DNA from: Amanita rubescens
Lineage: Eukaryota > Basidiomycota > Agaricomycetes > Agaricales > Amanitaceae
DNA: 64,000 nucleotides
Assembly (NCBI GenBank): GCA_015039365.1
Contig: WION01000193.1
Location: 1 to 64,000, forward strand
Direction of reading: 5' to 3'
Shown here one piece after another: positions 24,873 through 30,920 of the stretch. Position numbers and translations under genes: made by a program. Under the pieces are notes generated by a model. It did no database searches and had not been told where the DNA came from. It saw only the letters and a program-made list of their open reading frames with translations. Numbering within the stretch: position 1 is the first letter of the stretch; the number at the start of each line of letters is the position of its first letter.

Positions 24873-27800
24873 TTATAAGTAGTGCATGGCTAGACAAAGT
24901 ACATACATACCATCAATGTGAGTCACCTGCATATAGAGTAATGTGATCAAATCTTGATGACTAGAATGGATAAATTCAGGAGTAATGTCAGCCTTCAACT
25001 TCTGAACATAGCCATTTTGCTTGTATTGATCCAAGGCTTCTGTGACTGACAGCAGAAATGATTTATGGATCCAAAAGGATAGCTTAGCAATGATAATCAT
25101 TGCTTGAATTTTTAAGCATAAATACAGTGGATGAGGAGGAATAATTTACAAACTAAGAACTGGCAATCAGCAGGCTTGTTACAATGACATCAGTGATGTA
25201 CTAGCCTGAAAGAAAAGAAAAAAAATACCATAATGGCAAAGTGCTTTTGCTTGTCTCCAAATATGGAGGAAAGTTCATGCTAGTGAGATAGGTAAAATAT
25301 CCAGTGTATAATTGGGCCCCAGACCTACACACTAGCATGCCAACTGATATGAATATCAATGCCTCATGAAACAGCATCACATACCTGGAAATCAAGGAAG
25401 ATATACATATGTAAGTGTGAGGAATAGTCACATGAGGTGAAATCTTACAATCTAAAGCAATAGTAAAGTGGAAAAGGCAGAAATGGAAAAGATAACTTCT
25501 TGCTTACTTTCTGATATATTTACATAAGATGTCATGATATACATATAAAGTGACATTGATGAATAAAAACTTGTCATGATGTCACTCACAAGCTATTGGT
25601 CAGATGTAATCAGATTGCCTTTTATAAACATGCAATGTCACTCACTTCCTGTTGGACATAGTAGGAAAAGATGTGATCAGATTGCCTTTCATAAAATGTG
25701 CAATGTCACTCACATCCTGTTAGTCATAGGAAAAGATGAGATCAGGCTGCCATTATGTGCAATGCCACTCACTTGCTGTTGGTAATAGGAAAAGATGTGA
25801 CAGTGTGAGTCACTTTCACAAGATGTGCAATGTCACTCACAAACTGTTGGTGATAGGAAAAGATAATCATGAGACTGCCTTTCATAAAATGTGCAATATA
25901 CTTACTTCCTGTTGGTTATAGGAAAATGATGATGTGGTGAGACTGCCTTTCACAAAATGTGCAATGTCACTCACTTCCTGTTGGTCAAAGGGAAAAATGT
26001 GAGGAGATTGCCTTTCACAAAATGTAGAATGTCACTCACTTCCTGGTTGCCATAGGAAAAGATGTGATGAGACTGCCCCAGTTCACAAAATGTAGAATGT
26101 CACCCACAAGCTGTTGGTGATAGGAAATGATGTGATGAGACTGTCTTTCACAAATGTCCAACTTGAATATCACTTACAAGCTATTGGTGATAGGAAAAGA
26201 TATGATGAGACTGCCCTTCACAAATTGTGTAAATATCACTAACAGACTGTTGGTGATAGGAGAAGATGTGATGAGACTACCTTTCATAAAATGTCAATGT
26301 CACTCACTCGCTAGTAGTGGTGATAGGAAAATATATGATCAGATTGCATTTCACAAAATGTGCAATGTCACTCACTGCCTGGTTGTGATAGAAGAATATG
26401 TGATAAGACCATTGTTCACAAAATGTGCAATGTCACCCACTCCCTGTTGGTGATAGGATATTGAAGATGTGATGAGACTGCATTCTGCAAAGTCTGAGTC
26501 AATGTTGCTTACATCCTGTTGGTGATGGGGAAAATGTGATGAGAGTGCCTTTCACAAAATGTGCAATGTCACTCACAAGCTGTTGGTGATAGGAAAAGAT
26601 GTCATGACTTGATGATTGCCTTTCATAAAATGTGCAATGTCACTCACAAGCTGTTGGTGGTAGGAAAAGATGTAATATGAATGCTGGTCACAAAATATCA
26701 CTCACAACTTGCTGTTGGTGAAGATGTGATGAGATTGCCTTTCACAAAGTGTGCAGCATCACTCACTGCCTGATGGTGATAGAAAAAGATGTGATGAGAC
26801 CACCACTCACAAAATGTGCAATGTCACTTACTCCCTATTGGTGACAGGATAAGATGTGATGAGACTGCATTCCACAAAAGTCATCAATGTTGCCCACATC
26901 CTGTTGGTGATGGGAAAAAATGTAATAGATAATTGCTTTCAAAAAATGTGCAATATCACATACAAGCTGTTCATGATGGAAAAAAATGCAATGAGATGAT
27001 TGCCTTTCACAAAATATGCAATGTCACTCACTTCCTGTCGATCATGGGAGAAGATGTGATGAGACTGCCCCCTGCAAAATATCACTCACTCCCTGTTGGC
27101 AATAGGAAAAGATGTGATGGGACTGCCTTCTGAAAGTGTGCAATGTCACTCACATGCTAGTATTGGTGATAGGAAAAGAGGTGATGGGACAGCCTTTTAC
27201 AAAATGTGGAATGTCACTCACATACTGTTAGTGATAAGAAAAGATGTGGTGTGAGACTGCCTTTCCCCAAGTGTGCAATGTCACTCACTCCCTGTTGGTG
27301 ATAGAAAAAAATGTGATGAGTCATGAGACTGCCTTTCACAAATGTGGAATGTCACTCACTCGCTATTGGTGATGGGAATAGATGTGATTAAACTGCCTTT
27401 CACATAATGTGCAATGTCACTCACAAACTGTTTGTGATAGGAAAGATGCAATGAGACTGCCTTTCACAAAATGTGGAATGTCACTCACAAGCTGTTGGTG
27501 ATAGGAAAACATGTGATGAGATTACCTCTCACAAATGTGGAATGACACAAACATACTGTTGGTGATAGGAAAAGATTGATGAGACTACCAGTCTTTCACA
27601 AAATATGCAATGTCACTCACTTGCTGTTGGTGACAGGAAAAGATATGATAAGACTGCCTTTCACAAAATGTGGAATGTCACTAACAGACTGTTGGTCATA
27701 GGAAAAGATGTGATGAGAGTGCCTTCCCACAAAATGTGCAATGTCACTTACTTGCTGTTGGTCATGAGAAGAGATGTGATGAGAGTGCAAGTTTCACAAA

Positions 27801-30800
27801 ATGTGAAATATTCACATACTGTTGGTGATAGGAAGAGATGTGATGAAACTGCATTTCACACAATGTGCAAATGTCACTTACTTGCTGTTGATGATAGGGA
27901 AAGATGTCATGAGACTGCATTTCACACAATGTGCAATGTCACTCACTGCCTGTTGTAGAAAACAGTGATGAGACTGCCTTTCACAAAATGTGGAATGTCA
28001 CTTACTTGCTGTTGGGGATAGGAAAAGATGTGTTTTACACAATATGGAATGTCACTCACAAGCTGTTGGTGATAGGAAAAGATGTGATGAGACTATCTTT
28101 CACAAATGTGCAACTTGTATCACTCACTAGCTGTTGGTGATAGGAAAAGATATGATGGAACTGCCTTTCACGAAATGTGCAATATCACTCACATGCTGTT
28201 GGTGATAGGAAAAACTGATAAGACTGCCTTTTCACAAAATGTTCAATGTCACTCACAGACTGTGGTGATGGGGAAAGATGTGATGAGACTGCCTTCTGCA
28301 AAATGCACAATGTCACCCACTCCCTGTTGGTCATAGGAAAAGATATGATGAGGTTGCTTTCCACAAAAATCTTCAATGTTGCCCACATCCTGTCAGTAAT
28401 AGGGAGTAAATACATGTACATATGTATACTAGTAGAACAGCTTTTCACAATATTTGCAATGTTACTCACATACTGTTGGCCATTTGCAAAGATTTTGATT
28501 AGGTCATCCTTTGAAGCACAGTGCACCAAACCAGCATGACTGCTAACCTCCTAAGTGTATAGGAAAAGATGTGATTTCACTGCTTTTCACAAAAGTTGGA
28601 ATATCACTCACAATCTGTAGAATGAAAGAATGTGTCTGTGTGTGGCAGATTTGGCTGTCATCACTCACTTCCTTTTAGGATGGAATTAACATAATGAATT
28701 GGGGAAAAGAAATGATGCCACTGACTCTCTTTGCCATAGTATTTCATATGATGAAGAGTCACATCTCACAAAGGTATCACATACATCCTGTTTGTTTTGG
28801 AATAGTTTATGAAGAGGCTTTGAAAAGGAGACATACATATTCACCATCTGTTGTTTGGGACAAGATGTCATAAAGTTTCTAAACAGACAGAAAAGACATA
28901 TCATTTACTTTCTGTTATTAATCCAATGAAGTTTGTCAAGATACTCTTCCAGATAACAGTATGTCACCAACTTTCTATTGTTCATTGAGTCATGTCTGAC
29001 AAACTGCACAGACATCAATGTTGCTTACTTTCTTTAAGCAGGTCAAATGTGGTGTGAGGCAGTGTTGTATTACTCACTCCCTGTCCATGAGAGACTGGGT
29101 TGACAGGCCCTTTGCTTACAATGATAGATTAACTCACTTGCTATTCATCATATGATGCACCATCATTGGGATCATTTACCAAAAAACAAAACTGAGTGTC
29201 ACTCACTTCCTGTATAGTAGATTATGGGACAACGTTGATCACAATGAAAGCATTACTCACAAACTGTTGTCATGAGACAATATACATATCAGATCTATGC
29301 TGGTTCAATGTCACTTACCCACTAATATCAATAACATCAGACCCTGCCACCAAGGATATGGTGACAACTAACCTGTGCTTCACTCAGTTGTTTATTGGCC
29401 ATCTAAAGCATAACTAATCTTTTTTTGTGTAAAGGTGAGTGTTACTTACCTCCTAATGAACTTTTTGCAAGTATTTATCATTCAGATGAAGGCCACCTAC
29501 CACCCTGTTCACCTATTGCCATTAATTTTTCCTAGACTGATGTGCAGCTTAATAAATTCATACCCAAAAATGTGGAAATTTTGAAAAAACTATGATAATG
29601 ACTTCATCCCATGTGAAATCCTTATACTTCAGAACATGTCTAAACAATGTCAATGTTAGTATGTGACATTTTGAATATGACACTCACTGAAGTGCAGATT
29701 TCACACAAAGGTCAAGATTATTCATCTGTGTTGAAACAAACAACTGATATATGCTGTCATCATCTATTGCATCAGCAGTTTGTTGAGTTAATTCAGCACA
29801 ATTCTTTTCTGGCAAGTCCATGTCTACAAAACAACATTACTCCCATTTTTCAGGAAGATATCCTCATCATTCTCACCTTCCAACTGTACATATGCCTTGG
29901 GAGGATATTTGGCATCCAAAACTTTAGGAAGATAAACTTTCTGAAAAGTGATTTTAGCAATTTCCCTGGCTCTCTCCCACTCATCTTCATCATTTGAATT
30001 AGTCAAGTTGACAAATTCACTTGCTATTTGACCATCAAATTTAGTGAATATAACCACCAAAGGAACTGTAAAGGACATATTTGTACTAGTCAGCACACTG
30101 TAGATCAGTACTTAGTATGTTTTAGCCAATGGAAAGGGGGGTGACAATAGTTAAGGGCAAACAATCTCTCCAAAACCAACTTCAAGATGAGATATGAATT
30201 CATTAGGACTTACCTCTGCCTGTTCCTTTATTGAAGAATTCAAGTTCTGCAGGTAGAATGGGACGAGGGCTGTCCATAGGTATACAATACCTAGAGGAAG
30301 CCAGGTCAGCCAGTACAGTAAAGGGATGAAGCAAGATCTTAGATACCAAATTGCATGCAGCTGGTTTTTCAACTCAGTTTCTGCAGACTTCTTTTCAATG
30401 AACTTCCAAGCAATCTCCAATTCTTCAGTTGAACCAGATTCAAAACCCTGAGAGTCATGGAAGATAAAGTTACTTCCAGGGTATGTAATTTGATGCTCAA
30501 TATTGTGCAGGCCTCTCTGTTATCATTGCATGTAAATGGGTACATTCATACATCTTTTTTTTTTGACTCACCTCAACTGATGGAATCAAATGAATCACAG
30601 ACTGTTCAAGCTGATTACCTGCAAGAGACTCAACAGTCAAAGGATAGCACAAAACTGAGACTGACTTACCATCCTTGTCATATATGATGGGCTTTGTCCC
30701 CTTTGCCACACCACAAACCTTCTCAAGGATGGTTGTCTTGCCTGCATTAGCCCTCCCAATGACAAGGATGCGAAAGTGTGGGCATAGATAGTGCTCTCTG

Positions 30801-30920
30801 AGCATTTCAACATGTGTCTCATCTGGATCTGATCATGTGCATTAATTTACTATAGTAGTTGAGGATTCACATTGCTAAGGCATACTTACTCAAAGAAAGT
30901 GGACTGGTTGTGGTTGCCAT
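24873..30920 (-). CDS. G-domain GTPase with about 60 one-codon exons
   Basis: A P-loop GTPase of the type expanded in Agaricomycetes. Exons: 30,890-30,920; 30,670-30,828; 30,572-30,618; 30,347-30,516; 30,214-30,290; 29,877-30,065; 29,688-29,823. They give MATTTSPLSLNPDETHVEML, G1 GRANAGKTT, G3 HDSQG, YCIPMDSPRPILP and G4 TKFD, then LDLCVKSALQ. After that the gene enters the microexon region 25,449-29,504, where splice sites enclose single codons in phase. The C-terminal exons (about 24,873-25,380) include ALIFISVGML and EALDQYKQNGYVQKLKADIT and end AMHYL. An in-frame ATG also exists at 31,232. The G domain is certain. The C-terminal exon joins are tentative. Translation of the microexon part is inference. 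The GTPase's cellular role is unknown. Confidence 0.75.
25449..29504 (-). other. Series of 60 three-base exons plus one 6-nt and one 4-nt exon
   Basis: On the minus strand AG-NNN-GT recurs. Lowest coordinate of each exon, in transcript order: 29501 (4 nt), 29450, 29319, 29261, 29207, 29138, 29078, 29029, 28972, 28909, 28845, 28785, 28669, 28612, 28548, 28470, 28387, 28321, 28257, 28193, 28128, 28060, 28006, 27947, 27882, 27816, 27752, 27686, 27621, 27553, 27489, 27425, 27360, 27289, 27222, 27154, 27090, 27032, 26964, 26898, 26832, 26767, 26706 (6 nt), 26648, 26577, 26513, 26441, 26376, 26308, 26244, 26178, 26108, 26040, 25975, 25906, 25841, 25773, 25714, 25646, 25590, 25508, 25449. Codons: CTT 8, GAA 7, CAA 6, GGA 6, GAT 5, TAT 4, AAA 4, TTT/TCT/GCA 3 each, GAG/CGA/CAT/ATT 2 each, CTA/TGG/ATG 1 each; no stop. 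The 4-nt exon restores phase after a donor that leaves two bases. Confidence 0.7.
25590..28472 (-). repeat. Tandem array of about 45 intron-like units, period about 66 bp
   Basis: Each unit on the minus strand runs GTGAGTGACATTGCACATTT, then a GGCAGTCTCATCACAT core and a pyrimidine-rich CTTTTCCTATCACCAACAG end. So one repeat unit is one complete small intron plus one codon. Units differ by substitutions and small indels (51-80 nt), but donor GT and acceptor AG are kept in all. Donors vary within splice rules: GTGAGT, GTAAGT, GTTAGT, GTGGGT, GTATGT, GTTTGT. The flanking microexon introns at 28.5-29.5 kb and 25.4-25.6 kb are not clearly members of this repeat, yet follow the same spacing rule. 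Confidence 0.9.

Follow-up and report, generated by a model that had tools for sequence, protein, structure and literature searches.

Can a spliceosome join some 60 single codons one after another, and do so in many genes? The question is raised by a member of a large family of fungal GTPase genes; this member occupies the minus strand from 30920 to about 24927 of a 64,000-nucleotide stretch of Amanita rubescens DNA (contig WION01000193.1, positions 1 to 64,000; hereafter the window). The exons of its G domain are followed by a long array of AG-NNN-GT motifs, which the original prediction for this stretch took for about 60 one-codon exons in a row. Our analysis indicates that the array very probably consists of real spliceosomal one-codon exons, which follow the G domain, precede the C-terminal part and would be joined into a translated linker. 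Were this so, the answer would be yes, and the locus would test the lower limit of exon size, the sharing of three bases by U1 and the acceptor machinery, and the idea of splicing as a ratchet, while introns would be seen as a means of lengthening a protein in steps of one or more complete codons.

The array runs from E at 29452 to C at 25331 and comprises 62 three-base exons and one 6-base exon; a chain caller found 59 of the former and the 6-base exon, and GAG at 28550, ATT at 25451 and TGT at 25331 were added by eye. The predicted number was close, although slightly below our own count, and the run of AG-NNN-GT on the minus strand, the introns from 46 bases upwards, the stop-free triplets and the single 6-base member were all reproduced. 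It had also been claimed that a 4-base first exon corrects the phase, but this candidate is ruled out by an overlooked ordinary exon (29639-29564) that restores it; the array is in phase 0 both at its start, after FPHFW, and at its end, where HELSSIFG follows. Together with the exons VNRV and MANKQLSEAQ, the 62 single codons and the double one amount to 234 bases. How the gene is built, that its splice sites and triplets are under constraint, and that the peptide is conserved are all read directly from sequence.

The assembly (75.7 Mb, both haplotypes) contains 2461 exact sites of the pattern CAACAG-NNN-GTGAGTG versus 2 of the reversed pattern, and 20 stretches were fetched around good hits, haplotype copies among them. 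The counts of called exons refer to 13 non-redundant arrays of 40 to 85 called exons each; L039, in which an insertion upsets the chaining, was left out, as were L031, L043-L046 and L048, which are redundant. None of the 752 called three-base exons is a stop codon, and the chain caller carries no stop penalty. About 166 TAA or TGA triplets would be expected in total if the share of T as first base were the same before AA or GA as elsewhere; the first 17 exons of each array hold 0 stops in 221 against about 68, and the remainder 0 in 531 against about 98, numbers that give a scale and not a probability, because tandem copies are treated as independent and are not. Among the exact sites of the whole genome, 2 are TRA (both TGA) versus 1280 VRA and 315 T[ACT]T, so that T is tolerated in the first codon place except where a stop results. 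A looser scan returned three stops (2 TGA and 1 TAG of 1092, redundant copies included), which were dismissed: two are a 4-base register slip next to an exon called as TCA or AAA, and the other lies outside the array. Three-base spacing is equally strict, with 2461 exact genome sites at 3 bases, 11 at 4 and 33 at 6; the caller prefers 3-base exons, which biases its own length counts, whereas the genome pattern counts are free of this bias. In 62 cases anchor spacing hinted at an indel near the triplet and at an exon length other than a multiple of three, and in 60 of them the exon was called with 3 bases regardless.

On top of the genetic code, the triplets obey a rule at the RNA level. Of the 752 triplets, 704 have A or T as third base; AG, GT and NTA are avoided inside the triplets, and so are final G and C. 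AAA occurs 63 times and AAG never, CTT 84 times and CTC never, while the ordinary exons counted use all these codons. Such a rule might keep U1 from clamping the triplet, although this is a guess. In the window (25331-29452) and the arrays of L031-L050, nearly every amino acid is written with one codon (L=CTT, K=AAA, G=GGA, V=GTT, S=TCT, F=TTT). The codon set is narrow, with CAA and GAA also among its members, and GTC is absent just as AAG is.

The boundaries of the triplets have the features of U2-type introns, with GT or GC donors carrying a consensus from +3 to +6, YAG acceptors, and a branch-site-like motif that is enriched without being universal (CTNAY in 406 of 713 introns versus 233 in shuffles, half of the motifs lying at -26). 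The introns have a modal length of 62 bases. In 514 units from 14 arrays, picked by 16-base anchors outside AG-NNN-GTGAGT, the acceptor is AG in 513 and the donor GT in 503 and GC in 11, with no other donor and with G at +5 in 99%; this count includes L050, which stands outside the chained arrays because its G-domain end falls outside the stretch. A at +3 is a known compensation for GC donors, and it is present in 10 of the 11 versus 11% overall (binomial P about 3e-9). Position -3 is C or T in 97% of 698 units, these having been selected by likeness to the motif. AG, GT/GC, +4 to +6 and -3 are far better kept than the adjoining positions, and the triplet between them varies. Five allele-like pairs were compared, two of them identical, and the three differing pairs have 183 changes in 9106 intron positions, 9 in 1286 of splice sites and 2 in 428 of triplets (Fisher P 0.0005 and 0.02), the nine splice-site changes all being C/T or A/G exchanges. 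Indel events in the allele-like pairs number 48 in introns, 3 in splice sites by alignment and 0 in triplets. Introns longer than 100 bases (60 of 775 called) may conceal a missed unit, and they contain no strict AG-stop-GT.

Two intronless relatives, P0002 and P0019, carry the peptide that the first triplets spell. P0019 reads FPHFW VGRDE MANKQLSEAQ WFEHGKKDTDKQIVYDG and the window exons FPHFW VNRV E MANKQLSEAQ WFEQGKKKMDREIEYDG, with VGRD in P0019 and VDRA in P0002 as counterparts of VNRV. Along the 17 one-codon exons of the conserved block, P0002 is identical at 14 residues and P0019 at 11, in order, and the best score in 300,000 shuffles of the window codons was 8. Both proteins presumably come from complementary DNA (cDNA), since on their contigs, of 1446 and 1903 bases, the frame is open across the junctions: all seven of the G domain in P0002, and the last six in P0019, whose sequence begins at the end of exon 2. 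Two longer relatives, P0044 and P0047, run on into ELFSVFG...ACQVLA...AKLSF, similar to the last exons of the window. The conserved block is much the same in the other 12 arrays, with changes that are most numerous in L037, L041 and L034. The claim that a linker is gained codon by codon is in this way backed by stop avoidance, three-base spacing and splice-site constraint with compensated GC donors, as well as by first codons conserved in paralogs and by the same residues in the same order in two intronless proteins.

Several points weigh against this reading, which is based on genomic sequence. Among the matches listed, P0002 and P0019 reach no more than 89% identity to the A. rubescens genome and are therefore probably from other species, presumably other Amanita; neither could be matched to a locus of this genome. 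Both abandon the array peptide after YDG, beyond which they may contain a retained intron or a frame change. For the conserved one-codon exons silent change is unusable as a test, because the DNA sequence itself is conserved there. With the linker and the C-terminal part as queries, two region searches of the protein collection gave nothing at an expectation value up to 1, and the 20 sampled stretches were the best pattern hits, haplotype copies included. Moreover, none of the 34 database models of A. rubescens checked enters the array. Most units would be included in the transcript, but for the variable block full inclusion is something that we infer, because the region searches were empty, P0002 and P0019 cannot be traced past YDG, and the models stay out of the array. 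If the reading is right, this last point implies that the array proteins escape gene finders. Of the 34 models, 28 stop before FPH, most of them near ...CVKSALQ; at that point the unspliced donor after 29688 gives CAG TGA in the window. A contiguous linker in other paralogs, sought with the linker of P0044, was not found, the match being confined to the C-terminal part.

Among rival explanations, the array could be excised as one or a few long introns, with the triplets as decoys or pure ratchet points and FPHFW joined directly to HELSSIFG. Phase 0 at both ends would put this joint in frame, the region searches found no full-length linker protein, and 3-base exons are hard to recognise under known rules; decoys, however, require neither stop avoidance nor three-base spacing, and they would have no reason to spell a peptide carried by intronless relatives, so that we regard direct excision as quite improbable. 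Still harder to credit is an ordinary, functionless intronic satellite that happens to contain AG-NNN-GT. The units are indeed tandem repeats whose likeness is partly inherited, but AG, GT/GC, +4 to +6 and -3 stand out above their neighbours despite a varying triplet, GC donors are compensated, and coding exons are preserved on either side.

A mixed case, which belongs within the reading of real one-codon exons, has a better chance, although we still consider it rather unlikely: the conserved 17 and the last few codons would be constant, and much of the variable block would be skipped or randomly included, giving a linker that varies between transcripts. Nearly all units are symmetrical and could be skipped without loss of frame, the agreement of P0002 and P0019 with the array peptide ends at YDG, and the likeness between paralogs is restricted to the first part of the array. 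On the other hand, the remainder of the array is just as free of stops, with none in 531 on a scale of about 98, and splice sites are maintained throughout the arrays.

On the favoured reading, the unit of the array is one short U2-type intron followed by one codon, and tandem duplication of this unit would have multiplied the exons, every added unit lengthening the protein by a whole codon and never shifting the frame. The linker would have about 64 residues plus VNRV and MANKQLSEAQ, the conserved WFEQGKKKMDREIEYDG being followed by a variable stretch. Units would be spliced singly and probably stepwise, so that after each splice the growing exon lies next to the following donor, as happens in recursive splicing; stepwise removal is favoured because, with three bases between them, an acceptor and a donor are hard to occupy at the same time. 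The conserved zero-base AG/GT site near the end of the array (15 of 16 rows) fits such a stepwise removal, and in fungi an intron length of about 62 bases is suited to intron definition. The sixteenth row (L038) has ordinary one-codon units instead of this site. As each codon stands alone between copies of one intron, single codons could be added, removed or shuffled by unequal exchange with the frame kept. We suggest, tentatively, that the arrays may generate diversity at the codon level: besides this exchange, skipping of the symmetrical one-codon exons would yield many linker variants per gene, and a large GTPase family would thereby retain a recognition or spacing segment that changes fast.

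Exons of 6-36 bases are typical of the micro-exon genes (MEGs) of schistosomes. Very small symmetrical exons fill much of a MEG, and their skipping alters a few residues (PMC4350168). The likeness lies in the many very small symmetrical exons, here of 3 bases, in phase 0 and 40 to 85 per array. However, most of the coding region is micro-exonic in MEGs, whereas here 64 linker codons stand beside 295 G-domain codons and ordinary C-terminal exons, and MEG products are described in secretions and glands (PMC4350168), in contrast to a fungal GTPase family whose introns are copies of one repeat unit. In the recursive splicing of Drosophila, ratchet points split long introns, and zero-base sites hide a cryptic exon (PMC8605326). 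There, as here, acceptor and donor nearly touch and a splice recreates a donor, and the window even has a zero-base AG/GT site at 25385/25384; the steps in the array, however, measure about 62 bases, each leaves a codon, and acceptor and donor are 3 bases apart. That the spliceosome is able to use exons of 1 to 3 bases is indicated by the 1-base exon of Arabidopsis APC11, before which the smallest constitutive exon had 6 bases (PMC4674806), and by the three microexons of human RPS24, but those genes have one or three small exons each and not dozens consecutively. Fungal introner-like elements and stwintrons likewise form families of similar introns within one genome; they are dispersed or nested, whereas here an intron is multiplied in tandem with a codon. 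According to a 2024 abstract, no functional microexons had been reported from filamentous fungi, although the word microexon appears in the abstract of a 2005 paper on Phanerochaete P450 genes. Within the open-licence PubMed Central literature we found no gene with tandem, single-codon or array microexons, nor any Amanita microexon gene. The component parts are known and, to our knowledge, the arrangement is new.

The ordinary exons and the parts of the array are listed in Table 1. The eight G-domain exons, spliced by reading, give 295 open codons that include the P-loop GRANAGKTT and end in ...SKFPHFW in phase 0. The MMR_HSR1 label is precomputed on some relatives; in a scan of four relatives with PF01926 (MMR_HSR1), the best score was 20.7 bits, below the gathering cut-off of 21.9. 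The C-terminal exon has codon-position identities of.877,.932 and.838 across 11 paralogs, the pattern of a translated exon. The variable block is built of tandem units of about 65 bases.

Table 1. Exons of the GTPase gene on the minus strand of the window
Feature	Positions	Remarks
G-domain part, 8 ordinary exons	29564..30920	spliced by reading; matches Amanita proteins
G-domain exons 1-4	30920-30890, 30828-30670, 30618-30572, 30516-30347	
G-domain exons 5-8	30290-30214, 30065-29877, 29823-29688, 29639-29564	
Eighth exon, HVLKYKDFTWDEVIIIVFSKFPHFW	29639-29564	restores phase after the 29688 donor, which leaves two bases
12-base exon VNRV	29501..29512	V/A/I-x-R exon at the same place in 13/13 arrays listed
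One-codon exon E (GAG)	29450..29452	
30-base exon MANKQLSEAQ	29373..29402	identical ten residues in P0019
Conserved block, 17 one-codon exons, WFEQGKKKMDREIEYDG	28321..29321	compared with P0002 and P0019 in the text
Conserved block, first bases, part 1	W29321 F29263 E29209 Q29140 G29080 K29031 K28974 K28911 M28847	
Conserved block, first bases, part 2	D28787 R28728 E28671 I28614 E28550 Y28472 D28389 G28323	
Variable block, 41 one-codon exons and one 6-base exon	25590..28259	S28259 to L25592
6-base exon CAAGTT in variable block	26711-26706	
One-codon exon K (AAA)	25508..25510	
One-codon exon I (ATT)	25449..25451	AG-ATT-GTAAG in several paralogs too
Zero-base exon tttccAG/GTATGT	boundary between 25385/25384	AG/GT at the same place in 15/16 rows read
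One-codon exon C (TGT)	25329..25331	TGT, TCT, TTT or ATT in paralogs
Exon HELSSIFGDKQKHFAIM, phase 0	25229..25279	resembles ELFSVFG of P0044
Exon PADCQFLV plus one base	25150..25174	resembles ACQVLA of P0044
C-terminal exon ...MIIIAKLSFWIHKSFLLSVTEALDQYKQNGYVQKLKADITPEFIHSSHQDLITLLYMQ	24927..25102, 3' end approximate	codon-position pattern in paralogs

As to the spread of the arrays, the pattern hits lie on at least 31 contigs among the matches listed, and a rough extrapolation can be made from the 752 called units that correspond to 247 exact sites: at this rate the assembly would contain about 7,500 one-codon exons over its two haplotypes. With regard to an introner-type dispersal across unrelated genes, the stretches fetched around pattern sites hold one gene family: the same GTPase family was present in 20 of the 20 stretches, its C-terminal exon in all 20 and in the window, and the end of the G domain in 19. 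The family is strongly expanded in the A. rubescens genome. Of 150 candidates scored, 148 matched its C-terminal exon, a figure that covers haplotype copies as well as distant subfamilies. One array copy holds an insert of about 2.8 kb (L039:2874-5659) that is absent from L038, the flanking matches overlapping by 8 bases; our guess is a hAT-type transposon with its target-site duplication. In L040 and L049, the array gene has a convergent neighbour beyond it on the opposite strand, which belongs to the same family but to a more distant subfamily.

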